Below, piece after piece: positions 33,264 to 50,678 of a stretch of DNA of 64,000 nt; the stretch's first letter is position 1, and the number at the start of each line of letters is the position of its first letter. Location: positions 186,001-250,000 of the forward strand of contig JAHZKX010000018.1 of the NCBI GenBank assembly GCA_022600195.1, given 5' to 3'. Source of the stretch: Planctomycetota bacterium (GTDB lineage Bacteria; Planctomycetota; Planctomycetia; Planctomycetales; Planctomycetaceae). The notes below the pieces were generated by a model. It saw nothing but the letters and a program-made list of their open reading frames with translations. It was not told the DNA's origin and did no database searches. A program made the position numbers and the translations under genes.

Positions 33264-34016
33264 TTAATCTGCAATGACCTCGGCCATAATTTCATCAGGA
33301 ATATTAAAATTTGCTGTCACACTTTGAACATCATCATGATCTTCCAGTGATTCCATAAGCTTGAGAACTTTTTTACCGTCATTTACTCCCAAATCAACTG
33401 TATTCGCAGGAATACGTGAAATTTCTGCCAGATTCGTTGGGATTTTTCTGCTCTCGAATTCCTCAGAAACCTGTTGAAATGCTTCGATACTGCAAGTCAC
33501 CTCGAAAACATCGCCATTGGCGGAAACATCATCCGCACCGACTTCCAAGGCAATTTCAAACAACTCATCTTCGTTCACATTTTCTGCCGGAACCAGGAAA
33601 AGACCTTTTCGCTCAAACATCCAGGACACACAACCTGTGCTGCCAAGATTGCCGCCATGCACTTCGAAGGTCTTACGGATCTCACCCGCTGTTCGATTAC
33701 GGTTTTCAGTCAGGATATCGCATAAAACCGCAACGCCCGCCACACCGTAACCTTCATAGATTAGTTCCTCAAATCGTTCGCCAGATACTTCTCCACACCC
33801 TTTTTTAACAGCACGGTCAATATTATCCTTTGGCATACTGGCTTTGCGTGCTTTATCTATCGCATAACGCAAAGCTAAATTCATGCCGGGGTCTCCACCA
33901 CCATGTTGGGCTGCCACAATAATTGCGCGGCTCAGTTTGCCAAAAAGTTTACCCCGTTTTTTATCTATCACCCCTTTCTTGGCGGCGATATTTGCCCAAT
34001 GTGAATGTCCGGCCAT
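33264..34016 (-). CDS. yebC: YebC/PmpR-family protein
   Basis: A 250-residue protein matching the YebC/TACO1 family along its length: MAGHSHWANIAAKKGVIDKK, GKLFGKLSRAIIVAAQHGGG, NLALRYAIDKARKASMPKDN, the LIYEGYGVAGVAVLCDILTE core and TAGEIRKTFEVHGGNLGSTG. Members were described as transcriptional regulators; more recent work links several to relief of ribosome stalling on proline stretches. In many bacteria yebC is followed by ruvC-ruvA-ruvB; here two zinc-ribbon genes take the middle place. The ATG at 34016 is conserved. It is probably first in the operon that runs to mnmG. Confidence 0.96.
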   Translation of the reverse strand: MAGHSHWANIAAKKGVIDKKRGKLFGKLSRAIIVAAQHGGGDPGMNLALRYAIDKARKASMPKDNIDRAVKKGCGEVSGERFEELIYEGYGVAGVAVLCDILTENRNRTAGEIRKTFEVHGGNLGSTGCVSWMFERKGLFLVPAENVNEDELFEIALEVGADDVSANGDVFEVTCSIEAFQQVSEEFESRKIPTNLAEISRIPANTVDLGVNDGKKVLKLMESLEDHDDVQSVTANFNIPDEIMAEVIAD

Positions 34017-34120
34017 TTATGATTTGCTCAACTGAAAATTGAAAATGATGCTACTACGTCAGAACAACGTAAACTAGAAAAAACTGAACCTAAAAAAACT
34101 CCCAAGATAAAAGCAACCAA

Positions 34121-36394
34121 CTACTGATTCATTTTTTTCTGAAGCTGGTCAATCAGTTTTGTATCGGGAAAGGCTGACTTTTGCGCTGCTTCCAATGCCT
34201 TCTTCCAAAGTTCTGTTGCCTCTTTGGGTTTGTTTAATTTGTGATAACAGTCTGCAAGATGATCCAGAATGGTACTATCCTCACCACCAGGTAACTTATG
34301 GGCTCTCTCAAGATATTCCTGAGCCTCCTTATACTTCTGCTTTTTAAATAAGACCCACCCCATACTATCGAGATAAGCCATATTGTTCGGCTCAGACTTT
34401 AAAGCAATCCGAATCATCTTTTCTGCCTTATCGAGATTTTTCCCCTGCTCGGCGTAAAGATATCCCAAGTCATTATTGATAGTAGGATTTTGTGGATCTG
34501 CGGCAAGCATCTCTTCTAGAACTGCAAGACCTTTGCCGATATCTCCTTGTTGCACATAGGTATTGGAGAGCATCGACTTGACTAAATACACGCTTTTCTT
34601 TTGCCCTGGATATTTTTTGAGGAAGTCCTGCATTTGAACAATGGCATTGTCCCAATCACGACTATGGTAATAGATCCAGGCGTGCTGGTAATCAAGATCT
34701 GGAAGTTTGGGCGCTACCTTGCGTGCTTCTGCGTTCGCTTTAAGAGCAGCCTTTGTCTCGCCATTTCGCTCTCGGGCATCCGCTAAACGATACAACAAAT
34801 CAATCCGCTGAGGCGCCAATAGTGGGTTTTTGATTGCTTTCTGCAATAACTCCGAGAGTTCTCCATACTGATTTTCTACTCTTAAAAGAAAGCTGTATTC
34901 CAGTAGAAGTTTGTAAGCCCAATTCCCTCTCACTTGAGGCTTGGCATGTTTTCCTGCTGCATCCATAGCGAACTGGTAGAAATCGTGCGCTGCCTCTTTC
35001 TGCTCTGCTACTGCAGACAGTTTTGCAAGAATATATCCGGAATAGACGTCTAAGCCCGGCGGGTCGTTATCTTTCAGTTTCCGAGCCTCTGCAATCAGGC
35101 CATTCATGAATTTCTTGTCCTTGGACATCTTTTCCAGACTCGACTGTATTCTCTGAAGCCCATCTCCGCCCTGAACAATTTTGGAAAGTGTTTCAATCAG
35201 TTTCTGGTAGTTCTGATTCTTTTGATAGAGTGTTATCAAACCAGCCAATCCTTCAGAATCAGATGACTTACCAATCGAATCCAGATAGGTTTTTTCGGCT
35301 TTAGCAAACTGCCCCTGATCCGCATACTGCTCTGCCAGATAATAATTTAGTGTGCGATTAAAGCGATCTTTTTCTGCCAGTTTTTCCAGCTTGGGAATGA
35401 GCTCATCTGAACGATTCAAAGCTTTCAAAATCTCTGCCAGAAATTCATAGGCCTGGCGCCCTTTTGACTGTAGCTGCGCATCATAATAGGCCTGTAATGA
35501 ATCGAGCGCCTGCTGATACTGTTTCGATTTGAAATAAACTTGTGCCAAATGGTACTTCAAAATACCAGGACGCCCTTTTTGAGATTCTGCCGCTTTGTTG
35601 AATGCTTCAACAGCAAGCTTCAGGCGACCTGTCTCTAGAAATGACTGTCCGATCCGCTCATATAATTTGCCTTGCTTGGCTTCGAGCTGAGAACGAGAGT
35701 TGTATTCGAAAGTAAACTGATCTGGTTTTGTCAGAGCATTAAAAACCACTTCCCAACACTCTGCCGCTTTTTCTTTTTTACCTAACCGCTCGTAGAGATT
35801 TGCCAGATCATGTTGAATAATTACATAAACGCCCGACTTTTTATTGATCGTCGGAGAAGTAGATGCTTTCTTCAGAAAACGGACTGCCTCTTCAAAACGT
35901 CCCTGTCCAGCCATATGTAAACCCAGCTTCCGCATGAGTTCATAATCTTTTGGATCGAGTTCGACCGCTTTCTGGGCATACTGAATCGCTTCTTCTGTTT
36001 TATCCAGCCCCGAAGCCAACCTGATCAGAACCCGGTATATTTCGATCGAATTCGGATTATACTCCATCGCCTTTTTATAAGCTTCGTACGCTCCGATAAA
36101 ATCATTGCGTGCCTCGCGCAAACGACCCGTCATATACCAGGCAGCAGAATCAACTTCTTTCAGTTCTTCAGGAGTGCGCGATTTTGACGGAACAAAGGGA
36201 AGCACGACATCATCAGCAATACCTTCTCCCAGAGAGAATACTTTAGGAGTCGACTTCTTTTGAGAACTCTTCTCAACTCCCTTCTTGCCAGGCATTTCAG
36301 CTGAGAGAGGTGCCAAACCAATTGAAACCATCAAAGCAGGTAACAACACTATCTGTCTGGCTGTCGTGATCGCCGTCTTAGGAAAACCGCTCAT
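34121..36394 (-). CDS. Exported large TPR protein
   Basis: A 757-residue protein with an N-terminal signal peptide (ITTARQIVLLPALMVSIGLA). From about residue 65 to the end it is tandem TPR repeats, more than fifteen by eye: AWYMTGRLREARNDFIGAYE, AIQYAQKAVELDPKDYELMR, HLAQVYFKSKQYQQALDSLQ, DLGYLYAEQGKNLDKAEKMI and DSMGWVLFKKQKYKEAQEYL among them. The last repeats match the consensus most closely. It is probably a periplasmic scaffold. I chose ATG 36394 because GGAG lies seven bases upstream; a TTG two codons earlier is possible. It has its own spacing of 104 bases before yebC and may be transcribed with it. No enzymatic domain is visible. Confidence 0.85.
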   Translation of the reverse strand: MSGFPKTAITTARQIVLLPALMVSIGLAPLSAEMPGKKGVEKSSQKKSTPKVFSLGEGIADDVVLPFVPSKSRTPEELKEVDSAAWYMTGRLREARNDFIGAYEAYKKAMEYNPNSIEIYRVLIRLASGLDKTEEAIQYAQKAVELDPKDYELMRKLGLHMAGQGRFEEAVRFLKKASTSPTINKKSGVYVIIQHDLANLYERLGKKEKAAECWEVVFNALTKPDQFTFEYNSRSQLEAKQGKLYERIGQSFLETGRLKLAVEAFNKAAESQKGRPGILKYHLAQVYFKSKQYQQALDSLQAYYDAQLQSKGRQAYEFLAEILKALNRSDELIPKLEKLAEKDRFNRTLNYYLAEQYADQGQFAKAEKTYLDSIGKSSDSEGLAGLITLYQKNQNYQKLIETLSKIVQGGDGLQRIQSSLEKMSKDKKFMNGLIAEARKLKDNDPPGLDVYSGYILAKLSAVAEQKEAAHDFYQFAMDAAGKHAKPQVRGNWAYKLLLEYSFLLRVENQYGELSELLQKAIKNPLLAPQRIDLLYRLADARERNGETKAALKANAEARKVAPKLPDLDYQHAWIYYHSRDWDNAIVQMQDFLKKYPGQKKSVYLVKSMLSNTYVQQGDIGKGLAVLEEMLAADPQNPTINNDLGYLYAEQGKNLDKAEKMIRIALKSEPNNMAYLDSMGWVLFKKQKYKEAQEYLERAHKLPGGEDSTILDHLADCYHKLNKPKEATELWKKALEAAQKSAFPDTKLIDQLQKKMNQ

Positions 36395-36643
36395 CTTCAA
36401 ACTCCATTATTAGAAACAGAGATTATTCATTCTCTATCTGAGACCATCAACTGTACTTGCTAGAACAGTGATAGAGAGCATTTATTGTAACGCCCCCTCA
36501 CCATCTTCACCAAGACTGCTTTCTTCGGAATCTGCAATTTTAACATTGGAAAACAGAGGAATCTGCCTGACATCAGTATTGTACAGGAATTTTGCAGCGA
36601 AAGGAGTGGTTGCTCGGCAATGATCGATCGAGTTCCTGATCGC

Positions 36644-37597
36644 TTATTTTTTTTTCTTTGTGGTTGGTTTCTTTTTGGTAACCTTTTTCTTGACTACTGC
36701 CTTTTTAGCTGATGCAGTTTTTCTGGTTGCTTTTTTTACAGTTTTTTTTGCGGTTTTTTTCGGGGATTTTTTCGCTGCCGTTTTTACTCTCTTGGCAGGT
36801 ACTTTCTTTTTCACGCTGGCTTTCGTTTTTTTGGTTTTTGCGGATGCTTTCTTTTTCGTCACCCGTTTTTTCTGTTTGGAAAGTGGCTTTGCAAACATGG
36901 CTTCCAGCCGACTTGCCGCTTGCGTTAACTCCACTCCCTCTTCCGGTAAAGGATTCTTGAGTAAATTAAAATCAGCCGCAAGTTCTTCGTCTGTTGAAAG
37001 GCACCTCAATAAATGACTGAATAGAGGGACATCTGCCTTTCGGACGCTTGATTTCAGATTGTCACTCGCCGTCTCTATGCATTCATCCACAGACAGCAGC
37101 CCGATCCACTTGGTCGCATTCAGGATTTTTTCATCCACCGGTAAAACATGGCTCCCCAAGACAACCTGCAATGTATGGTTGATCACAAACGGAGTTAATG
37201 TTTTCGTCCTCGTTAATTGTTTTTGTGCCTGCTCTAATGTTTTCTTTTTCAATGAATCCAGATTAAAACAATATTCTTTATCGAACACATATTGTAAAAC
37301 CGACCTGATCCTATACGCACGCCATTCTGCATCATCGACCGGTTTAAACACAGATTCCAATTCTGAAATCGTGCTTACGCGGATTTCATTCAGGTCATGA
37401 AAGCCTGCCAGAAGAGAATCAAAAACTTCATCAGCCTGAGAATTCGTAGTATTCTCAAGACAGATGGCGTGTAATATTGTCTCTAATACAGGGCGATCAT
37501 ACTTTGGTAATGTTGCTGAATATCGCTTTTTAAGCAGCGTGATCAGTTTCTTACAAATAGCCTGTTTTTCTGATGTTGAAATTTTTTTAGCAACCAT
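36644..37597 (-). CDS. Endonuclease III-like domain fused to histone H1-like lysine-rich tail
   Basis: A 317-residue protein in two parts. Residues 1-225 resemble the HhH-GPD (endonuclease III) fold: VLETILHAICLENTTNSQAD corresponds to the first core helices, LNEIRVSTISELESVFK follows, and VLPVDEKILNATKWIG keeps the Asp at the catalytic-Asp position. The helix-hairpin-helix (TRTKTLTPFVINHTLQVVLG) is degenerate, and neither the catalytic Lys nor the [4Fe-4S] cysteines are visible, so glycosylase activity is doubtful. Residues 235-317 are almost pure Lys/Ala/Thr with SPKK- and AKKTVKKA-type repeats, like eukaryotic H1 or chlamydial Hc1. It lies 78 bases downstream of rbfA on the same strand. 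Probably a DNA-binding, chromatin-associated protein. Confidence 0.72.
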   Translation of the reverse strand: MVAKKISTSEKQAICKKLITLLKKRYSATLPKYDRPVLETILHAICLENTTNSQADEVFDSLLAGFHDLNEIRVSTISELESVFKPVDDAEWRAYRIRSVLQYVFDKEYCFNLDSLKKKTLEQAQKQLTRTKTLTPFVINHTLQVVLGSHVLPVDEKILNATKWIGLLSVDECIETASDNLKSSVRKADVPLFSHLLRCLSTDEELAADFNLLKNPLPEEGVELTQAASRLEAMFAKPLSKQKKRVTKKKASAKTKKTKASVKKKVPAKRVKTAAKKSPKKTAKKTVKKATRKTASAKKAVVKKKVTKKKPTTKKKK

Positions 37598-37675
37598 ATC
37601 TGTCTGTGCTGTCTACGAGATATTTCAATTGGAAAGTAATGGATACAACTCTTTTATTTACGGAAACACTCTCTG

Positions 37676-38095
37676 TTAAGCTTCACGCGTTTCTTCATCG
37701 GTGCTCCGATCCTCTTCCGAAGAAGTTTCCTGCTCTGAAGTGTTCGTTTCTCGCTCGACTTGTAATTCATCCAAAATACGAAGTGCCTCCATTGAATCCT
37801 TCAAAGCGGAATCCTGAACAAATTGAATCACAGGTGTATAACGGGTCTGAATTCGATCTGCAATTTTGGATTGAATAAATCCTTTTGCAGAGTTCAATCC
37901 ATGCATACAAAGTGCTTTTGACTTTTCATCTCCCATGATCGAAATATAAATCTTAGCCGACTGCACGTCCGGAGCCACTTCAACATGTAAAACCGTCACA
38001 TTCTGGATACGAGGATCGCGCAAATGCAGCAGGATTGTTGTACTCACTGTCTCTAATATCGCTTGAGCAATTTTTTCTATTCGACGGGTTGTCAT
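37676..38095 (-). CDS. rbfA: Ribosome-binding factor A
   Basis: A 139-residue RbfA. The KH-like fold is recognisable in MTTRRIEKIAQAILETVSTT, LLHLRDPRIQNVTVLHVEVA and DVQSAKIYISIMGDEKSK, ending with YTPVIQFVQDSALKDSMEAL. RbfA binds the 30S subunit during late maturation near helix 1 of 16S rRNA. The last 25 residues are acidic (SEQETSSEEDRSTDEE), longer than usual. It follows infB by 40 bases, as in most bacteria. Confidence 0.95.
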   Translation of the reverse strand: MTTRRIEKIAQAILETVSTTILLHLRDPRIQNVTVLHVEVAPDVQSAKIYISIMGDEKSKALCMHGLNSAKGFIQSKIADRIQTRYTPVIQFVQDSALKDSMEALRILDELQVERETNTSEQETSSEEDRSTDEETREA

Positions 38096-38135
38096 TCAGT
38101 CCCCACAAGCATTCAATGATTGACTCGAGTCCACC

Positions 38136-40919
38136 TTAATTAGAAGACTCCTCAAGAGTTCGTTTGACCTCATTGATCCGGAATGCTTCTAACAGGTCTC
38201 CCTCCTTAATATCATTAAACCCAGACAGAAGAATACCACACTCCATGCCTTCGCGAACTTCCTTCACATCATCCTTTTCTCTTTTTAACGAGGCGAGACC
38301 ATATTGATTGAGTATCTTCTGGTCTCGTATCAGATGTACGCGATCATTTCGATTGATCGTTCCATTCAACACACGGCAACCAGCAATCTTTCCAAATCGA
38401 CTAATCGAAAATGTCTGTAGAACCAGAGCACGTCCGGTTTGTTCCTGTACCAGTTCGGGACGCAACATCCCTTCCAGCGACTGTTTGATATCATCTAAGA
38501 CTTCATAAATGATACTATAACGCCGAATTTCGACATCTTCCTGTGTTGCAAGAGTTCGAGCGCGATCTTCTGCAATCACATGGAATGCAACGATAATTGC
38601 ATTTGATGCACTCGCCAGATAGACATCACTTTCGTTGACTCCCCCAACCCCTTCGTGCAGTATTTTAACCCGCACTTCTGGATGCTCGAACTTCCCGATT
38701 TCACTTCGAATCGCTTCCAGAGAACCTGGCGTATCAGCTTTGATTATCAGAGGCAGATCCTGAATCGCCCCCTCGTGGACAGAACTCATAATGTCTTCCA
38801 GAGTTCGAGGACCACCACTGTGTCTCGATAAAGTATCGGCACGTCCTTCATGACGACGCTCTTCAGCCAGTTCTCTCGCTTGATCAATGTCAGGAACCAC
38901 AACAAAGTGATCGCCGGCACCCGGTACAGTATCCAGGCCGGTCACCTTCACAGGCATTGCGGGTAAGGCCTCTTCTAACTGCTGGTCTTTGTCATCATAC
39001 ATGGCACGAATGTAACCATAAGATTTGCCGCAGATCACGGCGTCACCTATCCGCAACGTACCAGTTTGAACAATCAACCAAGCGACAGAACCGCGACCTT
39101 CATCGCGGAAACCTTCCAGACAGACACCAACGGCAGAACGATTCGGGTTCGCTTTGAGTTCATGCAATTCAGCAGTCAACAACAACGTTTCCAGCAAACT
39201 GTCGAGACCTGTGCCCTGTAAAGCAGAGACTCGTACCACTTCGGTTTCTCCACCCCATTCGGAGGGAAGCACATCTTGGCCAGCGAGATCCGTCAATACT
39301 TTTTGTTCGTTAATTTCGGGCAAATCAATTTTATTCATTGCCACAACCATTGGCACACCAGACGCTTTAACATGGCTGATACTTTCAGCAGTCTGAGGCA
39401 TCACACCATCATCAGCTGCAACTACCAGCACGACCATGTCTGTGACGTTCGCACCCCGTGATCGCATTTCACTAAAAGCGGCATGCCCGGGTGTATCCAC
39501 AAAAGTCAATTTGTGCCCGTTATAATCTATTTGATAAGCGGCTATATGCTGGGTAATTCCCCCCGCTTCACCATCAACCACTTTCGAATTTCGAAGTGAA
39601 TCGACGAGAGTCGTCTTACCATGATCTACGTGACCCAGTACGGTGATAATCGGTGGTCGTGTGATAAGATCTTCGGGAGCGTCTTCCTGATCAATAATCT
39701 CGGCAACAGTTTCCAAAGCGCCTTTTTGCCGTTTAAAGGTCAGATCCACTCCTAATTCTAATGCCACTGCCAAAGCAGTTTCCTCTTCAAGGATCTGGTT
39801 GATGGTTACCATTTCACCAAATTCTTTAAACAGAATTGACATTATTGCTTTTGCAGGACGCCCCATCGCCTCCGAAAGACTGCGTACCGTCATTGGCACT
39901 TCGACTTCCGCTTCTGTTTTGTGAACGATCGCTCCTGAATCTTGCTTCCGTTTTGATCGACGGGGGCGACGGCCTACCACTTCCTGCTGCTCAGTTCCAT
40001 CAGGAGCAAAGACACGACGACCTTCTTTGCGCTGTTCTCGACGCTGTTTCCGCGCTTCGACCAGGCTCAGACTTCCTCGACGTTCTTTTGAATCTTCGTC
40101 CTGAGGATCACGATCTTTCTCACGCTTTTTCTGTTCCGTATGTTGAGCCAGATGAGCGGCCAGAGGACTCTTTTGCTCCAGAATATCTGCAGTCAAACGA
40201 ACTTCAGGCTTCTGTGCTTTTACCTCTTTTTTCTTGACTTTAGGAATAACTGGTTGCTTATACGCAGGAGGAGCTGCCACTGAAGGCAATGCAGACTTGG
40301 CTTTCGCTTTCGACTGCTGCTTGCCAGAACGTGTGGACCCACGAGGTAACATCTCACGGATTGAGGAAGAATTTGTGTTTCCAGCAGGTACAAAATCATC
40401 ACGACTGAGAACTTGGTCCGACTCACCCGATTCAGCTTCTTTTGACTTGCGTTTCAGTGCGCTAGAACGAGACTCCTTAGCCACTGCACCAGAAGTTTCT
40501 TCCTCTCCAGAAGAATCGTCTGGGGAATCGGAACTTTCTGCCGCTTCCTCTGCTTCTTCAACCGCTACCCCTGAATCGCTTTCTTCTCCCTTGTCTGAAA
40601 GCTCCTCATCTTCTGATGCTCCGGAGGATTTTTGTGTTGTAGAACGAGAAGATTGTGATCGGGACGTCATGGCCTTGATGGTCCGCATCTTCGCCTGTTC
40701 ACGTTGCGGTACCATGGTTGCCTGATCAACGGCCTCTGCTGAATCACCAGAAGGTTGTTCCTTCTTATTCAGATAGGCAATCACAATGTCACGTTCGTCG
40801 GGCGTGATGCTCGCCAAAGCGGAGTTCTTCAACTTCACCCCCGCTTGGTTACATTCATCGATCAGCACTTTGCTGTCCATTCCCAACTCTTTTGCAAGAG
40901 CAAAAATACGTATCTTCAA
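38136..40919 (-). CDS. infB: Translation initiation factor IF-2
   Basis: A 927-residue IF-2. The first 50 residues are the IF2-N domain ([20 protein letters not shown]), followed by about 270 residues of charged, Ser/Glu/Lys-rich linker. A second IF2-N-like domain ([20 protein letters not shown]) precedes the GTPase: G1 [13 protein letters not shown]2 [11 protein letters not shown]3 [10 protein letters not shown]4 MNKIDL, G5 SALQGTGLD. Domains II-IV follow to the end. I place the start at a TTG (40919), because GGAG lies eight bases upstream and family members begin MKIR; an in-frame TTG at 40940 would add seven residues. IF-2 brings initiator tRNA to the 30S subunit. It sits between nusA and rbfA. 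Confidence 0.97.
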
Positions 40920-41027: not shown

Positions 41028-42530
41028 TTATTCCTGCTTTTCTGTAGACTCTTCTGTAGTATTCTCCGCACTCACCGGTACTTCTTCAGTATCGACGACT
41101 TCATCTGTCTTTGTCTCGGACTCAGCAGAGGCTTCCTCCGTGACGACACTCTCTTCAGCTTCAGCTTCGACGACTTCGTCTGTCTTTGTCTCGGATTCAG
41201 TAGAGGCTTCCTCTACGACGGCACTCTCATCAGCTTCCGAACCGCTCACTTCTGCCTCAGATTCAGTCTCTGCCGGTTCTGAAGTTATTTCAGCTTCGGT
41301 AGCGACGGATTCCTTTTCGGCTGAGGCTGGCGGATTATTTTTCTTGGCGGCGCGCAGTGCATCTTCTTCCGCTTCGACACGCTCACTTTCCCGATCAGCA
41401 ACTTCCACAATCTGTGTGCATTGCTCAGCAGTCAGACCACCGAGTTCTGCCAACTGGTCTGGCTCGATAACGGATAAATCGTAGTAACTGAAAAATCCCT
41501 GTGATACCAGGCTTTCAGCCAATTCTTCGGAAACGCCGGGGATTGAAGAAAATGCTTCGACTGTTTTATCCAACTGTTCATCCAACTCGTTTTGAGTCAT
41601 CACTTCAATGTCCCAACCGACCAGTTTAGAAGCCAGTCGCACATTCTGGCCTTTTCGACCAATTGCCAGAGGGAGTTGATCATCGCGTACAAGCACAATC
41701 ACACGCCCTAACATCGGACATAATATGACATCTTCCACTTCCGCAGGTTGTAATGAGTTCGGTACCAGAACCTGCAAAGAGTCATTCCAGCGGACGATAT
41801 CAATCCGCTCACCGGCAAGTTCATCCACAATATTTTTGATCCTGGCTCCTCGCATTCCCACGCAGGCTCCCACGCAATCGATGCTACTGTCCATACAGGA
41901 TACTGCTACTTTGGATCGATAACCGGCTTCGCGTGCCAACGAACGAACATCAATAATTCGATCCGAGACTTCAGGAATTTCCAGTTCGAATAATCGCCGC
42001 ACCATATCCGGATGAGTTCGTGAGAGAATCACTTTGACGCGACTACCCGCTTTACGTACATCCAGAACAATCGCACGCACGCGATCACCTACTCGAAACG
42101 ATTCACCGGGTATCTGTTCGCCTCGCGGTAGAATGCCTTCTATTTTTCCCAGGTTGATCAGTACTGCCCCACCTTCGACTCGCGAGACACTTCCCGAAAC
42201 CGATTGATGTTGCATTTCCAGATATTCATCAAAAACGGAATCTCGTTCCGCTTCACGGATTTTTTGAATCATGACCTGCTTGGCTGTTTGTGCTGCAACA
42301 CGCCCCAGAATTTCACCTAGAATATCCTGAGCCAACTTTTCCTCATCACAAAAAACGGTCGGTTCACCTGAATCACGGTCAATATGGACAGAAAGATCAT
42401 GATCATCTCCGAAGTGCCTGCGCGCAGCCGATAAGATTGCCTGTTCAATCCCACCAAACACGATCTCTTTATCAATACTTTTATCGCGTTGAATGGCATC
42501 AACAATCCTGAGAACTTCCTTACCGTCCAT
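41028..42530 (-). CDS. nusA: Transcription termination/antitermination protein NusA
   Basis: A 500-residue NusA. The N-terminal RNA-polymerase-binding domain (residues 1-130) precedes S1 ([20 protein letters not shown]), KH1 ([20 protein letters not shown]) and KH2 ([20 protein letters not shown]). A helix-hairpin-helix-like region follows ([34 protein letters not shown]), then about 120 residues of acidic Glu/Ser/Thr-rich tail that includes a 25-residue tandem repeat. The ATG at 42530 has AAGGA eight bases upstream. NusA tunes pausing, termination and antitermination. It heads nusA-infB-rbfA and is preceded by a leader with an intrinsic terminator; rimP, usually upstream, is absent. Confidence 0.97.
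41092..41241 (-). repeat. 75-bp tandem repeat in the 3' part of nusA
   Basis: Two head-to-tail copies of 75 bp (41092-41166 and 41167-41241) encode two 25-residue units sharing EEAS(T/A)[10 protein letters not shown]. The period is a multiple of three, so copy number can change without a frameshift. The copies differ at a handful of positions, mostly in their last third. Confidence 0.8.
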
Positions 42531-43283: not shown

Positions 43284-44702
43284 ATGTCACGTTTAATCCC
43301 CCTTTTGATTTTCTGCATCGGATTCCCCATCACCGCGGCTGCACAGCCCACTGCAACAAACGACCCTTTTGCCCAACAAAAAATACAGGCTGATCAAGCT
43401 CAGCAAAAAGGCGATTATGCGAAGTCTATTGAACTGACATCGCAAATTTTGCAACAAAATCCGAATGACCATGTCGCCTATTATCTGAGAGCCAGTGCGC
43501 GTGTGGAATCAGGCAGGGCACAGGGAAATGCCAAAACCATCAGAGACGGGATCGGCGATGCACGTGAAGCAATCCGGACCAGTCAAAATCAAAATGTGAA
43601 TTACTATCTGCCTTATCTCTACGGAATGATGAATCTGGCAGTCATGGAAAACAAAAAGAGTCATGGCGAGACAGCCTTGGGTGTTGCAAATCAAATTCTG
43701 GTCCGCCCGAACCTGACTGCTGAAGAACGAGCCAATTTCCACTATCAGCGCGGGATGATCTATCTACCCTTGAATAAACCACAGGAAGCGGCGAAAGACT
43801 TCACCGAAACAATTAAACTTTCCCCTAACCACTTTGCAGCTTTACTGGCACTGCCGGATGCTTATGCTTTAGCTGGAAATAACGAAATGGCACTCGCCAG
43901 CTTTAATCAGGTTGCACAAAAACAGCCCGATTCTCCAGTTGTTTATAACAACCGCGCCATGTTTTTCCAGCAACAGGGAAAACTTCAGGAAGCCATCAAT
44001 GACTTCTCCCGAGCGATTCAGATCGATCCGAAATACCACCATGCCATTACGAATCGAGGCTTTGCATACCTGGAAGGTGGTAAACCTGAGACGGCTGAAG
44101 CAGATTTGACACAGTCGCTCTCCATTGCCCCAAATCAACCATTCGTCCTCGGAATGCGAGGAGAGGCGCGGCTTCTGCAAGGAAAGATTACACAGGCTAT
44201 CGAAGATCAGAAACAGGCGGTGCAACTAGATCCGCAAAATGCGGCTCTGCGTTCTGACTTAGGATTTTCCTACTTTTTCAGTCAAAATTATCCTGCTGCC
44301 ATTACCGAGTTCAATCTGGCGGCAAAATTAGCTCCTGAGCAGATGAAAGTATTAAATCCCTGGATTTACCTGGCAATGATTCGCAGTAACCAAAAACCTG
44401 CAGCAGATGCCAAATTTCAATCGGTTCTTGCACAAAAACCAGAGACGCGAGATTCAGTTGATAATCTCCTTGCTTTTCTAATGGGGGCGGTTTCTCAAGC
44501 TAATCTGATTAAATCCATCGACCTCAAAGACAAGGAACGCGCAAATGCCCAAACTTGCGAAGCATACTTCTTCATCGGGCAAAAAGCGCTGCTTGCCGGT
44601 GACAACGCAACCGCCACTCAAAATTTTCAGCAAGCCCTCAATACCAACATGAAGAATCTGTCGGCATATCGTGGTGCTCAATACACACTCAAAAAGTTTT
44701 AA
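43284..44702 (+). CDS. Exported TPR-repeat protein
   Basis: A 472-residue protein with a signal peptide (SRLIPLLIFCIGFPITAAAQ) and about nine TPR repeats, for example KGDYAKSIELTSQILQQNPN, HYQRGMIYLPLNKPQEAAKD, NRAMFFQQQGKLQEAINDFS, NRGFAYLEGGKPETAEADLT and DLGFSYFFSQNYPAAITEFN. The repeats are close to the TPR consensus and alternate with the DP/NP turns typical of O-GlcNAc-transferase-like TPRs. No catalytic domain is present, so it is probably a periplasmic binding scaffold. The ATG at 43284 follows AAGGA. The gene ends in a shared terminator facing the ketosynthase-like gene. Confidence 0.88.
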   Translation: MSRLIPLLIFCIGFPITAAAQPTATNDPFAQQKIQADQAQQKGDYAKSIELTSQILQQNPNDHVAYYLRASARVESGRAQGNAKTIRDGIGDAREAIRTSQNQNVNYYLPYLYGMMNLAVMENKKSHGETALGVANQILVRPNLTAEERANFHYQRGMIYLPLNKPQEAAKDFTETIKLSPNHFAALLALPDAYALAGNNEMALASFNQVAQKQPDSPVVYNNRAMFFQQQGKLQEAINDFSRAIQIDPKYHHAITNRGFAYLEGGKPETAEADLTQSLSIAPNQPFVLGMRGEARLLQGKITQAIEDQKQAVQLDPQNAALRSDLGFSYFFSQNYPAAITEFNLAAKLAPEQMKVLNPWIYLAMIRSNQKPAADAKFQSVLAQKPETRDSVDNLLAFLMGAVSQANLIKSIDLKDKERANAQTCEAYFFIGQKALLAGDNATATQNFQQALNTNMKNLSAYRGAQYTLKKF

Positions 44703-44799: not shown

Positions 44800-44833
44800 A
44801 GCCCCGGAAAGCTCTACATTGCTCTCCGGGGCT
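44800..44833. terminator. Bidirectional rho-independent terminator
   Basis: AGCCCCGGA pairs with TCCGGGGCT, and an inner AGC/GCT extends the stem around the loop. Six A precede it and a T-rich stretch (TTATTTTTAT) follows, so it can end both the TPR gene (+) and the ketosynthase-like gene (-). Confidence 0.88.
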
Positions 44834-44862: not shown

Positions 44863-46164
44863 TCACGCACCGCAAATCACGGAAGCGCTGGCTTGCCCGA
44901 AGGTCGTAGAGCTGATTTTCAAAAACAGCTTGTTATCTGTTGCCAGAGGTTCATTTCGAACCACATTCAAAGGACAGTCTGCATCAGGTGTTTCATAGTT
45001 TAATGTCGCGGGTATCACGCCCTGTTTCAGAGCAACCAGCGAACCACTGGCTTCGACAATTCCACAGCCAGACCCAGAGTTTCCAAAGTAACTTTTAAGC
45101 GCCGTCACAGGAACTTCTGTGGCTTTATCCCCAAAGATATCCTGTATTGCCTGAAACTCTACCACATCAAAAACCTGCTCTCCCAGGCCATGTGCATTGA
45201 TGTGACCAATATCCCCTGGCTCGACTCCCGCATTTTTCAATGCTGATTTGATCGAGTTGGATATAGCAGCTCGCATATTAGCTGTTCCATCCCGATTGAT
45301 GACGCAAGAGGCACCAGAACCCAAAAGCTCACCCCAAATTTTTGCACCACGATTTTCCGCATGCGATTTTTCTTCCAAAAGCAGTGAGCAAGCTGCCTCA
45401 CCCACAACCTGGCCTGTTCGCGAATTGTCAAAGGGACGAGAACGTTGAGAAAGCTCGGCTGGCGAGTCTGCCAACTGATCCCAGAATTTGGCATGTATCG
45501 ACTTGATTTCATGCACCCGAGTTCCCGTCACACCCGCAATCATCACATCAGCCCAACCACGTTCTATCACACGTTGCGCTTCACCCAACACCAGATTACC
45601 AGATGCTTCTGCTTGTGTGATTGAGTTGCTTGGCCCACGTGCATCAATAATGATTCCAATATGGCATGCTGGCATGTTGGGTAGATACTTCAATAACCAC
45701 AGCGGTTCCATCTTAGGCAACCCATCTGCGCCCCAACGTTTGTATTGGAATTCGGACCCCTCAGAACTGGCAACGCAAGCACCAAAAAGCACTTCAGGCG
45801 GGCTTAACATTAAATTGGCGCCGAATTCGATTCCGAAGCGTTCACTATCGACTGCTTCCAGATCCAGTGCAGAGTCTTCAACCGCCAGATTTGCGGAAGC
45901 CACTCCCAATTGAATTTCGCGGCACATGACCTTCAGGCTACGCCGCTGATTCTTAAGATACTGTTTTTTGATCGTACTAGAATTGAAATCAGAAACTTCG
46001 CCCACACAGGTATCTGGTGATGCCAGATAGGCATATAATTCTGATTTTTTAATGCCCGATTTACCCGACATCAAACTGTCTTGAAACGCGTCCACTCCGA
46101 TCCCGATAGGACTGAGAATACCCATCCCCGTTATCAGAATTCGACGATTTGAATCTGTATTCAT
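44863..46164 (-). CDS. Ketosynthase-fold protein lacking the catalytic Cys (FabF-like, chain-length-factor-like)
   Basis: A 433-residue thiolase-fold protein homologous to FabF over its length (RRILITGMGILSPIGIGVDA; RSRPFDNSRTGQVVGEAACS; INAHGLGEQVFDVVEFQAIQ). Aligned with the window's own FabF, the active-site Cys165 is Glu186 (GPSNSITQAEASG against GPNSAVATACASA), the first His is kept (His325) and the second is Asn362 (KSYFGNSGSG against KGHLGHLLG). The C-H-H triad is therefore E-H-N, so it cannot act as a normal condensing enzyme. Polyketide chain-length factors (Cys to Gln) pair with an active KS in this way; a malonyl-ACP decarboxylase role is another option. The ATG at 46164 has AAGAGA upstream. 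It is downstream of fabF on the same strand. Confidence 0.88.
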   Translation of the reverse strand: MNTDSNRRILITGMGILSPIGIGVDAFQDSLMSGKSGIKKSELYAYLASPDTCVGEVSDFNSSTIKKQYLKNQRRSLKVMCREIQLGVASANLAVEDSALDLEAVDSERFGIEFGANLMLSPPEVLFGACVASSEGSEFQYKRWGADGLPKMEPLWLLKYLPNMPACHIGIIIDARGPSNSITQAEASGNLVLGEAQRVIERGWADVMIAGVTGTRVHEIKSIHAKFWDQLADSPAELSQRSRPFDNSRTGQVVGEAACSLLLEEKSHAENRGAKIWGELLGSGASCVINRDGTANMRAAISNSIKSALKNAGVEPGDIGHINAHGLGEQVFDVVEFQAIQDIFGDKATEVPVTALKSYFGNSGSGCGIVEASGSLVALKQGVIPATLNYETPDADCPLNVVRNEPLATDNKLFLKISSTTFGQASASVICGA

Positions 46165-46572
46165 TTGAATCTCTTTAGAAAGTCCCGCTTACACACTTTG
46201 ACAGTTGCTTTGAATCATGTACTTTTATCGTAGAACACATTCATCCCAGAACAACCCCTCTACGGGCAAGAGGCTAAAAAACCTGTGCACGCAGGTAAGA
46301 ATTCAGAAAGAATATGGTTTTAAGACTCTGGAGTTTTCTACTTGATTGACCCAGCTTTGCAGCAGAAAACCAGCCAGTATACACGATTCAGACCCAATGA
46401 AACACCTGTAACAGGGGATAGCTAAGACAATCGAGGCATGATTTTCAACCCTGAAGCGACACTCAGCTAAAGAATTATTCGGGAAAACTCTACTTCTCCA
46501 CGGATGTGCTGAAAACGACTGCCCTCAATAATCATGCGATCAGTGACTTTGGCGATTCTATTAAGAAGGCAC
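46165..46572. other. Intergenic stretch between fabF and the ketosynthase-like gene
   Basis: About 400 bases without a gene. CCTCT and AGAGG form a 5-pair hairpin around ACGGGCA near 46258-46274, not followed by a T run. The gap is long for an operon, so the ketosynthase-like gene may have its own promoter here, though I cannot place one. Confidence 0.4.
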
Positions 46573-47817
46573 TTAAGGTGCTTTTTGCAGGACCAGACAG
46601 GCATTATGCCCGCCAAAGCCAAAGCTGTTCTTCATCACCCGCTCAATTTTCATCTCGCGTGGCTCATTCGGGATGTAATCGAGATTACACTTCTCGTCAG
46701 GTTCATCAAGATTGATGGTCGGAGGCCCAACCTGCTCCTGAAGTGCTTTCACAGCAACGACAAATTCCACACCACCGGATGCCCCCAGTAAATGGCCTAA
46801 ATGCCCTTTTGTACTGGAAACAGGCATCGATTTCACGCGCGAGCCAAAAACAGCGTTGATCGCAGCGGTTTCTGCCACGTCACCTAAAGGTGTGCTCGTC
46901 CCATGTGTATTGATATAATCAATGTCGTCGGTATTCAATCCGGCATCTTTAATGGCATGCTGCATGGCACGTGCCGCTCCGCGTCCCTCAGGATCGGGAG
47001 CCGTCATATGAGTCCCATCAGCTGACATTCCATAACCAACAAGCTCTGCCAGAATAGGAATGCCACGCTTTTTGGCATGTTCATATTCTTCAAGCACGAT
47101 AATCCCGGCACCTTCTGCCATCACAAATCCGTCACGATCGCGGTCAAATGGACGACTGGCGGATTGAGGATCATCATTGCGAGTCGACAGAGCATTCATT
47201 CGGGCAAAGCCGGAAAGCCCCATCGGAGTCACAGCAGCTTCGCTTCCACCTGTTACCATGATATCGGCTACGTCATGCTGAATCAGCTTAAATGCGTCTC
47301 CAATTGCGTTCGTCGCAGAAGCACAGGCTGTCGCAACTGCGCTGTTCGGACCTTTCAACCCATAGGTAACAGAAATATTTCCGCTGGCGGCATTCACCAT
47401 CAACTTGGGAATCATAAAAGGAGAAACACGGGCAGGACCCTGATTGTAAAGGCGGTCGTGCTGACTTTCGATTTCATTCAGCCCGCCAATACCACTTCCC
47501 ACCAGAACACCTCTCCGGTAAGGATCACCATCAAAGTCTTCCAATTGAGCCTGACGATAGGCGATGTGAGCACCAACAAGACCAAACTGCACAAAGCGGT
47601 CGACTCGTTTCAGCTCTTTGGCTGTGATATTGGTATAATCTGCGGCGTTAAAGTCTTTGATTTCGCCACCAAAACGCACTTTGTAGTCGCTGCAGTCAAA
47701 GCGTTCTACCAGACCAATACCACTTTTCCCTGCGCATAATTTGTCCCAAAACTCTGAGACATCCAAACCCAGAGCCGTTACAACTGAAGCCCCCGTAACG
47801 ACAACTCGCCTGCGCAT
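46573..47817 (-). CDS. fabF: 3-oxoacyl-[acyl-carrier-protein] synthase II
   Basis: A 414-residue condensing enzyme with the full catalytic triad: Cys165 in VATACASATNAIG, His305 in NTHGTSTPLGD and His342 in KGHLGHLLGASG. Other signatures are RVVVTGASVVTALGLDVSEF, RGVLVGSGIGGLNEIE, MVTGGSEAAVTPMGLSGFAR, RPFDRDRDGFVMAEGAGIIV and NSFGFGGHNACLVL. FabF extends acyl-ACP by decarboxylative condensation with malonyl-ACP. The ATG at 47817 has GGAAGAG upstream. The acpP stop is 87 bases upstream, as in most fab operons. Confidence 0.96.
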   Translation of the reverse strand: MRRRVVVTGASVVTALGLDVSEFWDKLCAGKSGIGLVERFDCSDYKVRFGGEIKDFNAADYTNITAKELKRVDRFVQFGLVGAHIAYRQAQLEDFDGDPYRRGVLVGSGIGGLNEIESQHDRLYNQGPARVSPFMIPKLMVNAASGNISVTYGLKGPNSAVATACASATNAIGDAFKLIQHDVADIMVTGGSEAAVTPMGLSGFARMNALSTRNDDPQSASRPFDRDRDGFVMAEGAGIIVLEEYEHAKKRGIPILAELVGYGMSADGTHMTAPDPEGRGAARAMQHAIKDAGLNTDDIDYINTHGTSTPLGDVAETAAINAVFGSRVKSMPVSSTKGHLGHLLGASGGVEFVVAVKALQEQVGPPTINLDEPDEKCNLDYIPNEPREMKIERVMKNSFGFGGHNACLVLQKAP

Positions 47818-47903: not shown

Positions 47904-48137
47904 TTAGCTGGCTTTCTCAGTGATATAACCAACGACATCGCCTACAGTTTTAATTTTGTCATAATCATCATCCGGAATCGTGACATCAAACTCGTCTTCA
48001 AATTCCATAACCAGTTCAACGATGTCCAATGAATCGGCTTTTAAGTCGTCGATAAATTTGCTCTCTAGCGTAATTTCTTCTTTAGGATGGCCCAGTTGCT
48101 CGCTAACGATACCAACCACTTTTTCTTCGATTGACAC
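47904..48137 (-). CDS. acpP: Acyl carrier protein
   Basis: A 77-residue ACP with the phosphopantetheine attachment site Ser36 in [20 protein letters not shown] and strongly acidic helices ([39 protein letters not shown]). It starts at GTG (48137); AAGGAG lies eight bases upstream and there is no nearby in-frame ATG. It carries growing acyl chains between FabD, FabF and other fatty-acid enzymes. It lies between fabD and fabF, but fabG, which normally precedes acpP, is missing. Confidence 0.97.
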
Positions 48138-48530: not shown

Positions 48531-49439
48531 TCAGGAATCATTGACTGTTTCGCACGAAATCTTACGATTGACCCGCTTCATTAATCCTTTGAGTACCTTT
48601 CCAGGACCAATTTCATAAAATTCGTCGAAGCCAGCATCAAGCATCTTACGCAGCGAATCTTCCCAGAGAACCGGGCTGATCACTTGACGTATCAGTAATT
48701 CGCGAATCTCATCCGGATCTTCATGAATTTCCGCATCGACATTCGAAATCACCGGAATTTCAGGCTTTTTGAGCCCCACTCCCCCCAATGCTTCTGACAA
48801 CCGGCTGTCGGCAGGTTTCATGATTTCCGTATGAAAGGCACCTGCAACCGCTAATGGAATTGCCCGGCCTCCCTCCTGTTCTGCCAATTCTGCTGCCCGT
48901 TCGCAGGCACTGTTTTCTCCGGAAAGCACAATATTTCCAGGGCATAAGTAATTGGCGATCCAAATCTTCCCTGCAGAAGAAGCCGCTTCGCAGATCTCAC
49001 TCACCTTTTCGCGATCCAGCAGCAAAACACTGACCATACCGGATGGATTGGCATTAGCGGCGGCCTGCATCGCTTCTCCGCGACGCTGCACAACACGCAA
49101 ACCATCTTCAAATGTCATCGCACCGGCAAAAACCAGTGCCGTATATTCTCCCAGGCTTAAACCTGCCGCCATCTCACAACCTAAGACTTTATCAGGAGAA
49201 TCAGCACGCAACATCTCCAGAGCCGCCAGACTGGTCACAAACAAAGCTGGCTGGCTGATAACAGTGGAATCCAAGTCTTCACTGGGACCTTCAAAACAAA
49301 TCTTGGCCAAATCATATTGAAGGATTTCAGCTGCTCGATCAAAAAGTTCCTGGGCCGCCGGGTATTTTTCGACAATCGTTTTGCCCATTCCGAGATGCTG
49401 AGCACCTTGACCGGGAAATAAAAAAGCGATTCTGCTCAC
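48531..49439 (-). CDS. fabD: Malonyl CoA-acyl carrier protein transacylase
   Basis: A 302-residue FabD. It has LFPGQGAQHLGMGK, the nucleophile Ser95 in AAGLSLGEYTALVFAG and the catalytic His203 in AVAGAFHTEIM; Gln from the first motif forms the oxyanion hole. It transfers malonyl from CoA to ACP. The start is GTG at 49439, with AGGG about nine bases upstream. It follows plsX by 51 bases; fabH, usually between them, is absent. Confidence 0.96.
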   Translation of the reverse strand: MSRIAFLFPGQGAQHLGMGKTIVEKYPAAQELFDRAAEILQYDLAKICFEGPSEDLDSTVISQPALFVTSLAALEMLRADSPDKVLGCEMAAGLSLGEYTALVFAGAMTFEDGLRVVQRRGEAMQAAANANPSGMVSVLLLDREKVSEICEAASSAGKIWIANYLCPGNIVLSGENSACERAAELAEQEGGRAIPLAVAGAFHTEIMKPADSRLSEALGGVGLKKPEIPVISNVDAEIHEDPDEIRELLIRQVISPVLWEDSLRKMLDAGFDEFYEIGPGKVLKGLMKRVNRKISCETVNDS

Positions 49440-49490: not shown

Positions 49491-50492
49491 TCAGGCCACT
49501 GGTTTCTGTGCTAAATGTTCGGCAATTTGAGAGTTAATGCCGCGATCCTTGAACATGGCACTTCCCCTTAAGGCATTGGAGATGGAATGGGCATCACTCG
49601 AACCATGACAAATGATACAGATACCATCTATTCCCAAGAGAGGGGCTCCACCCGTCTCGTGATAGCGAAACCGCTTACCCAGATCTTGAAAAGCCTGCTT
49701 TGCCTGATTTTGTTCCACATCCAGACTGCCCAGAATATGCTTTGAAGCGGCCTGCATCAGGAAATCTGCCATTCCTTCACTGACTTTCAACACCACATTA
49801 CCGACAAATCCTTCACAAATTAAAACGTCAGCCTCTCCCTGATAGAGACCTCGTCCCTCCACATTTCCAACAAAGCTGTCTTTCAAAGGACTCTCATTCA
49901 ATAGCTGGAACGTTTCCCGATAAAGGTCATTTCCTTTAACGTCTTCGCTGCCAATATTGATCAAACCAATCTTTGGAGATTCGATGTGCAACACTTCACG
50001 GGCATAGATTTCACCCATGACAGCATATTGATAAAGGTGTGAAGGACGCGCCGAAGGGTTCGCACCAACATCCATGAGAACTGCATGACCGGCAGTTGTC
50101 GGCAAGGTGACAGCGATACCAGGACGCTTGACTGACTTCAAAAACAGCCGGGTTTTCAAGCCTGATGCAACCACTGCCCCGGTATTTCCGGCACTGACGA
50201 TGGCATCCACTTCACGAGCAGCCATCAATTTCCAACAGATTGAAATCGAACTGTCCGGCTTTTGACGCATCGCTTCTGTTGGTTTTTCTTCCATGCCTAC
50301 GACTTGGCTGGCATGGGCAACCGAAAGACGATCTCCCTGATAGCCGGAAGCTTCGATCTCTGCTTCGATTTGATCCTGAGGACCAACTAATGTGACACAG
50401 AGCGCAGGATCTGCCTGCAATGCCACGATTGCGCCTTCGATATTCGGTTTGGGGGCAGTATCTCCCCCCATAGCATCAAGTGCAATCCGCAT
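49491..50492 (-). CDS. plsX: Phosphate acyltransferase PlsX
   Basis: A 333-residue PlsX of normal length: MRIALDAMGGDTAPKPNIEG, AVVASGLKTRLFLKSVKRPG, GHAVLMDVGANPSARPSHLY, LINIGSEDVKGNDLYRETFQ, GNVEGRGLYQGEADVLICEG and ETGGAPLLGIDGICIICHGS. It makes acyl-phosphate from acyl-ACP for PlsY in phospholipid synthesis. The ATG at 50492 lies six bases after the rpmF stop, and its GAGGA Shine-Dalgarno is inside the last rpmF codons, so the two are translationally coupled. TGAGG/CCTCA around the site could form a small hairpin that masks it. Confidence 0.96.
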   Translation of the reverse strand: MRIALDAMGGDTAPKPNIEGAIVALQADPALCVTLVGPQDQIEAEIEASGYQGDRLSVAHASQVVGMEEKPTEAMRQKPDSSISICWKLMAAREVDAIVSAGNTGAVVASGLKTRLFLKSVKRPGIAVTLPTTAGHAVLMDVGANPSARPSHLYQYAVMGEIYAREVLHIESPKIGLINIGSEDVKGNDLYRETFQLLNESPLKDSFVGNVEGRGLYQGEADVLICEGFVGNVVLKVSEGMADFLMQAASKHILGSLDVEQNQAKQAFQDLGKRFRYHETGGAPLLGIDGICIICHGSSDAHSISNALRGSAMFKDRGINSQIAEHLAQKPVA

Positions 50493-50498
50493 TGAGGT

Positions 50499-50678
50499 TT
50501 AGTCCTCAGTATCAACAATGGTACGACCCTGATAGTAACCGCAGTGAGGGCAAATAGCATGGGTAGGGGACGCAGTTCCACACTGTGGACAGTAGGTTGG
50601 CTTACTAGCCTTGATACCATTATGACTGCGTCTCTTACGAGAATTGGATTTGGACATCCTTCTTTTAGGAACTGCCAT
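50499..50678 (-). CDS. rpmF: 50S ribosomal protein L32
   Basis: A 59-residue zinc-ribbon form of L32. It starts MAVPKRRMSKSNSRKRRSHN, the universal basic N terminus, and has two Cys pairs (CPQC and CPHC) 13 residues apart before GYYQGRTIVDTED. It is part of the large ribosomal subunit. The rpmF-plsX-fab order is widely conserved and ties ribosome and lipid synthesis. The next plus-strand gene is divergent, so rpmF probably heads the operon, with its promoter in 50679-50947. Confidence 0.97.
   Translation of the reverse strand: MAVPKRRMSKSNSRKRRSHNGIKASKPTYCPQCGTASPTHAICPHCGYYQGRTIVDTED

Follow-up and report, generated by a model that had tools for sequence, protein, structure and literature searches.

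What does a ketosynthase look-alike contribute to a primary fatty-acid cluster once Glu has replaced its catalytic Cys? A Gimesia-like planctomycete raises this question with a protein here named KSE1, encoded in a window of 64,000 nucleotides, by which we mean the whole stretch of DNA that was analysed. An initial annotation had offered two answers: a structural partner forming a heterodimer with FabF, or a malonyl-ACP decarboxylase that primes synthesis.

KSE1 is the last gene in the order rpmF-plsX-fabD-acpP-fabF-KSE1, in an operon without fabH and fabG; its coordinates had been assigned correctly, with the gene on the minus strand, and its frame of 433 codons is intact and free of internal stops (Table 1). 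Judging by the hairpins, the transcription unit probably ends at the strong one running from 44833 to 44800, and the 408-base gap with its weak hairpin would leave co-transcription of fabF and KSE1 possible; the consensus scan for terminator-like hairpins gave 10 sites in the region, against 6.0 expected by chance. A nusA gene lies within 4.5 kb downstream of KSE1 in 13 of the 54 loci with room for it, and is also found downstream in three loci of another family (L132, L133 and L136). Between KSE1 and nusA, the plus strand of the window encodes a TPR-repeat-like protein (43284-44702), a relative of which is found downstream of KSE1 at many loci.

Table 1. Features of the fatty-acid operon and its downstream flank (window coordinates).
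Feature	Position	Strand	Description
nusA	41028..42530	-	co-oriented downstream neighbour of KSE1; named by sequence resemblance
strong terminator-like hairpin	44800..44833	-	13 pairs and T run, immediately 3' of KSE1 stop; consensus scan
KSE1	44863..46164	-	ketosynthase-fold protein, 433 aa, Glu186/His325/Asn362; candidate non-catalytic beta subunit
fabF-KSE1 gap	46165..46572	-	408 bases; weak terminator-like hairpin 46296-46281 (consensus scan only)
fabF	46573..47817	-	414 aa, Cys-His-His, GFGG gate and ACP patch intact; likeliest candidate partner; TIGR03150 611.8 bits
acpP	47904..48137	-	acyl carrier protein, 77 aa; named by sequence resemblance
fabD	48531..49439	-	malonyl transacylase; PF00698
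plsX	49491..50492	-	PF02504
rpmF	50499..50678	-	ribosomal protein L32, first gene of the unit; by sequence resemblance and E. coli order

Pfam finds only ketoacyl-synthase domains in KSE1 (PF00109 and PF02801), and the AF2 model (pLDDT 92.4) has a thiolase fold. The protein is 30% identical to the FabF of the window over 430 columns (E = 1e-54), and the alignment is free of gaps around the nucleophile (query 127-186), as had been described; Glu186, at the position of FabF Cys165 (full numbering), His325 and Asn362 were read directly. FabF (beta-ketoacyl-ACP synthase II) thus has the same fold at about 30% identity, but KSE1 lacks its Cys, its second His and its GFGG gate: the triad is Glu-His-Asn in place of Cys-His-His, and TTFG stands at the gate. 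Against the fabF equivalog TIGR03150, KSE1 reaches 258.7 bits, below the cut-off of 493.75, and is not a FabF by this measure.

A scan of named genome contigs yielded 337 relatives. In the window protein and the best 80 of these 337, the Cys position holds Glu in 66 sequences and Asp in 15, and Cys or Gln in none of the 81; the first His is kept in 61 of the 81, with Asn, Cys, Ser or Gly in the others, and none of the 80 sequences that cover the second has His there. Glu is present in the genome of the window and in 16 others of its genus (17/17; L001-L017). In a set of 87 KSE1 proteins, drawn from open reading frames of 250-700 aa only and leaving out about four of the fetched KSE1 loci, Glu or Asp is found in 86, the single exception being Gly (L143). 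Lys and Glu at FabF positions 335 and 349 are retained in 85 of the 87 each, and neither the GFGG gate (0/87) nor the second His (0/87, one row being partial) occurs. Of 119 genomes drawn from across the class at a completeness of at least 95%, 92 match the KSE1 profile at E <= 1e-128; by the same profile match, so do 33 of the 33 listed genomes of the family of the window, in a listing that covers all but 7 of the genomes lacking a match. The constancy of Glu or Asp across genus and family makes the acidic residue a steady trait of the family. Glu had been called unusual at this position, which is true when KSE1 is held against FabF or chain-length factors (CLFs); within the KSE1 family it is the rule, and it was printed for Rhodopirellula baltica in 2009 (PMC2649909, Table 2). 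One relative, Glu-Cys-Ser and 53% identical (L086), is titled Candidatus Kuenenia stuttgartiensis; it comes from a metagenome bin, its title may be wrong, and its residues group with those of Planctomycetaceae.

Two paralogues elsewhere in the genome of the window place this family in a wider context. KSE2 (contig C81) is a second acidic paralogue, Asp-His-His and 41% identical, and FABF2 (contig C14) is a Cys-His-His ketosynthase near FabG and two FabZ-like genes. The two are on separate contigs here; where a genome of the genus consists of a single contig, as in G001, megabases lie between them. Genomes from other families and classes show a KSE2-type gene 5' of a FABF2-type gene on the same strand; 23 such tandem pairs were counted among the fetched stretches, a number that is not a rate, since many stretches were fetched for their side-by-side hits. 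Members of the pairs were taken from open reading frames of 300-900 aa, and the count is without L192 and L193, where the ORF picker missed the beta gene, and L200, where it missed both genes. By the ends that the ORF caller assigned, 21 of the 23 pairs are within 120 bases of each other or overlap. The 3' (alpha) member is Cys-His-His in 23 of 23, and all 27 alpha proteins have Cys-His-His with GFGG; of the 5' (beta) members, 19 carry Glu or Asp at the Cys position, that of L197 carries Asn and that of L204 Gln, and those of L194 and L196 are still Cys-His-His. KSE1 itself is located 3' of fabF, across the gap, so that the arrangement of a beta gene immediately preceding a Cys-His-His alpha gene is a feature of its relatives. 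With their full triads, Gln-Gly-Glu in L204 (6647-7978) and Asn-Asn-His in L197 (4422-5699), these two beta proteins show that not every member of the wider beta lineage has the acidic residue.

For phylogenetic placement, a quick tree of 101 rows was computed, and a careful tree of 68 of these, 33 having been dropped by hand: long branches (including two Streptomyces ketosynthases of L213 and two ketosynthases of the genome of the window), the Gln-bearing beta protein of L204, and near relatives. In the careful tree, the alpha (FABF2) clade comprises 17 rows (support 100/100) and the beta clade 40 rows (100/96), KSE1 among them; the two are sisters (57 rows, 100/99). All beta proteins without Cys form one clade of 36 rows (100/99), inside which the KSE1 clade has 17 rows (100/100), and the FabF of the window groups with E. 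coli FabF (98/94). The quick tree likewise contains a beta clade, of 57 rows (98), with SH-aLRT values of 98 and 99 for beta and its non-Cys part; the sister relation of alpha and beta is not recovered there, and one Streptomyces ketosynthase joins the alpha side (90). By its placement, KSE1 looks like a duplicated beta subunit that now stands beside the primary fabF, rather than like a degenerate copy of fabF. Two Streptomyces CLFs branch outside the planctomycete beta lineage in the careful tree, which makes the likeness of KSE1 to CLFs one of function and not of close descent.

The Cys-bearing L155-L157, as well as L191, L194 and L196, were placed among the beta proteins by the tree. In L194 and L196 the beta member is still Cys-His-His, and in L191 it is Asp-His-His with an intact gate; all are already split from alpha at position 65 (E. 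coli FabF numbering). In the pairs L194:5767-8334 and L196:5687-8418, both members are Cys-His-His and position 65 is Lys in one and Glu in the other; these pairs are apparent evolutionary intermediates.

Position 65 belongs to the ACP-docking patch, for which positions were taken in E. coli FabF numbering (PMC7138838). It is Lys or Arg in 28 of 28 KSE2-type beta proteins, 6 of 6 early beta proteins and 86 of 87 KSE1 proteins (Arg in KSE1 of the window), and in none of the 27 alpha proteins. Position 68 is basic in 25 of 28, 6 of 6 and 85 of 87, respectively, and in 5 of 27 alpha proteins; none of the 87 KSE1 or 28 KSE2 proteins is basic at position 69, and positions 127/128 are basic in 47 of 87 KSE1, 4 of 28 KSE2 and 11 of 27 alpha proteins. 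FabF is basic in 34 of 35 sequences at each of 65, 68 and 69 and in 35 of 35 at 127/128. According to a figure legend in PMC7138838, most ACP contacts come from the ketosynthase monomer that is not crosslinked to ACP; read with this legend, the beta/alpha split at position 65 would fit docking of ACP on the dead member of a heterodimer, although the split may be one event counted repeatedly. As a control, six actinobacterial KS/CLF pairs were examined (excluding L213, with no annotated CLF, and L218, without annotation), in which five of the CLF-side proteins bear the annotation chain-length factor and the sixth (L217) that of a ketosynthase-like protein. The outcome was mixed: position 65 is basic in 6 of 6 CLFs and 0 of 6 ketosynthases, the same split as between beta and alpha, and the pattern is reversed at 68 (KS 4/6, CLF 1/6) and 69 (KS 6/6, CLF 0/6). 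The adjacent FabF keeps its own patch and therefore probably still functions as a homodimer; if the pair were obligate, FabF would be expected to have lost its patch, as FABF2 has, so that a heterodimer with KSE1 is probably not obligate.

Conservation along the protein points in part to the dimer interface. In alignment A1 (43 sequences), 18 of the 57 invariant columns fall into residues 154-183, against 3.9 expected, for a stretch that was chosen after the list of invariant columns had been seen; it overlaps the published dimer-interface stretch of FabF. The active-site loops, with a value of 0.96 the best conserved part of FabF, score 0.68 in KSE1, where the remaining residues score 0.62. 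The interface block 131-160 is equally conserved in FabF (0.87) and KSE1 (0.88), and the part 161-180 reaches only 0.67 in KSE1.

Direct observations are the pattern of residues, the placement in a beta lineage, the tandem pairs of relatives, the split at position 65 and the conserved stretch 154-183. To account for them we propose, giving the proposal a little under an even chance, that KSE1 is a non-catalytic, chain-length-factor-like subunit that pairs with a Cys-His-His ketosynthase, most likely the adjacent FabF. The dead KSE1 would dimerise with the live enzyme, for which the FabF encoded next door is the likeliest candidate; the basic patch of KSE1 would receive the ACP, whose acyl or malonyl cargo would then pass to the Cys in the live partner. 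The conserved bulky residues Trp156 and Tyr160, near the dimer interface, may help to set which chain lengths are elongated, and the Glu, with no role as nucleophile, would only cap the helix that Cys normally heads.

Of the 66 loci with room for it, 30 have FabF no more than 2.6 kb upstream of KSE1, which speaks for the partnership with FabF, and 36 have no FabF within that distance, which speaks against it; both are counts over related sequences and therefore not over independent events. A few of these 36 carry other genes of the fab operon in the same stretch (L037, L062, L065, L074, L082). The 408-base gap with its weak hairpin between the two genes in the window also tells against this partner. 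The structural-partner reading itself is supported with moderate confidence by the comparisons made here: beta-clade membership, tandem relatives, and the conservation of half the interface stretch and of some ACP-patch positions agree with it, and the adjacent FabF as the partner is plausible only.

A different partner is a serious alternative, albeit one we consider rather unlikely: KSE1 could be the beta subunit of FABF2, acting in trans, with its place beside fabF due to shared regulation or chance. KSE1 arose inside a lineage whose other members adjoin FABF2; FABF2 has lost its basic residue at position 65, which may leave it dependent on a beta subunit; and with KSE2 and FABF2 on different contigs, and megabases apart in G001, pairing in trans would be needed anyway. 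At one locus (L073), FABF2 is located upstream of KSE1 on the same strand. It is, however, the only locus seen with KSE1 near FABF2, to be set against the 30 of 66 near FabF; in another family (L133), KSE1 is 3.4 kb from FabF, and the genome already has another beta protein in KSE2.

The 36 loci with no FabF close upstream would also suit a homodimeric pseudoenzyme that binds acyl-ACP as a sensor, regulator or buffer and has no live partner, as would the loss of catalysis with fold and part of the ACP patch retained, and a FabF that looks self-sufficient. We nevertheless regard this as improbable: by the legend in PMC7138838, the patch of a ketosynthase mostly serves the active site of its neighbour, for which a dead homodimer would have no obvious need, and for relatives from outside the KSE1 clade an alpha gene is often the tandem neighbour.

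The other answer of the initial annotation, a decarboxylase making priming acetyl-ACP from malonyl-ACP in the manner of a KSQ domain, fared worse. KSQ domains carry Gln in place of Cys. The first His is kept in the window and in most of the relatives, but its loss in 20 of 81, the complete absence of the second and the loss of the gate loop make such an activity very improbable for KSE1, both His being described as indispensable for decarboxylation (PMC2649909). Nor can the role be derived from a missing fabH: the gene is absent from the operon only, and FabH is encoded elsewhere in the genome (L126:2048-3220; TIGR00747, 347.3 bits against a cut-off of 292.1), with which the priming argument falls away for this genome. 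Among the relatives, 59 of 59 match PF08545, which is no proof of FabH in each, the domain not being FabH-specific and matching archaeal control genomes as well. The suggested priming role would be filled by the malonyl-ACP decarboxylases of the Mad family (MadA/MadB), which have a hot-dog fold and a catalytic Asn loop (PMC8666670), unlike the ketoacyl-synthase domains and thiolase-type fold of KSE1.

That the carboxylate itself is catalytic in a new acyl-ACP reaction, serving as a general base or accepting an acyl group in the way of the Glu of CoA-transferases, would suit the nearly invariant Glu/Asp and the Lys and Glu kept at 335/349, but is scarcely credible with Glu and Asp interchanging, Gly once in their place, Asn and Gln in the wider beta lineage, and both His positions drifting (Val and Phe occur at the first in beta relatives).

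The residues themselves have been on record for some time. Table 2 of Rattray et al. (2009; PMC2649909) gives Glu/His/Asn for the R. baltica FabF paralogue NP_866153 and Asp/His/His for NP_865682, the residues of KSE1 and KSE2, respectively, at all three positions; from this match and the shared phylum, the two probably belong to the KSE1 and KSE2 families. A different substrate or function, possibly tied to ladderane moieties, was proposed there for these paralogues, and the parts of the paper considered mention no heterodimer, dead partner subunit or ACP patch. The same paper groups the anammox proteins Kuste3606, 2805 and 3348 with the R. baltica paralogues, and a table in PMC4790861 has kuste3606, 2805 and 3348 as 'non-canonical' FabF/FabB, numbered beside the ordinary FabF 3605, 2804 and 3349; going by these locus numbers, pairing of KSE1 may bear on the ladderane clusters of anammox bacteria. 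A KS-CLF catalogue (PMC10132072) has Planctomycetes among 14 phyla with pairs and classes 319 non-actinobacterial pairs as FAS-FAS, so that planctomycete pairs such as these may have been counted before; an acidic residue, a planctomycete gene or a member in a fab operon is not described in the portion of the catalogue considered. An explanation of the acidic residue by a dead partner was not found in the open-licence literature.

The nearest working models for KSE1 are, by analogy, the CLFs, ApeC and the ishigamide KS/CLF. Like a CLF, KSE1 has a ketosynthase fold without the nucleophilic Cys. The CLF of type II polyketide synthases (KS-beta, for example that of actinorhodin, 1tqy_B) usually has Gln at the Cys position, and in our control the CLF side has Gln in 5 of 6 and His in 1 of 6, whereas KSE1 has Glu, or Asp in relatives, and lies on another branch of the tree, with the planctomycete beta subunits, and in a primary fab operon; the two also differ at positions 68 and 69, and the partner of KSE1 is putative. 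The reducing type II systems ApeO-ApeC and ishigamide KS/CLF stand in a FAS-like context, as does the paralogous planctomycete pair of L191 with its FabG-, FabZ- and ACP-like genes; compared with them, KSE1 is full length. What is new in KSE1 within the KS/CLF kind is a member located in a primary fatty-acid operon.

Should KSE1 indeed pair as proposed, primary fatty-acid synthesis would not require its elongating condensing enzymes to be homodimers, control by a dead partner would have evolved on more than one occasion, and the residues that the 2009 paper (PMC2649909) recorded but left open would be given a concrete explanation. A broader version, which we hold only tentatively, is that in much of this bacterial class the housekeeping fatty-acid synthase works with a heterodimer, in which a live FabF is joined by a dead acidic subunit that receives the ACP and determines chain length. 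The two-subunit logic of polyketide and polyene pathways would then extend to primary lipid synthesis, in a lineage apart from the tested actinobacterial CLFs whose Cys-bearing intermediates persist to this day.

Further ketosynthase genes were noted in this and other genomes. In the genome of the window, contig C14 holds a second FAS-like cluster with two FabZ-like genes, FabG and the alpha ketosynthase (L123:5558-9560); the cluster L191:2761-9360 has the same set together with an ACP-like gene, the beta subunit and a GH3-like protein, and both resemble reducing type II polyketide or polyene clusters. Three KSE-like matches occur in G045, which belongs to another family (L135, L210 and G045:C1:1341680-1342924); of these, the two whose residues were read are Glu-His-Asn. 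On contig C71 of the genome of the window (33871-40020; L116, L117), an open frame of 2728 aa with two ketosynthase matches apparently encodes a large multidomain synthase.
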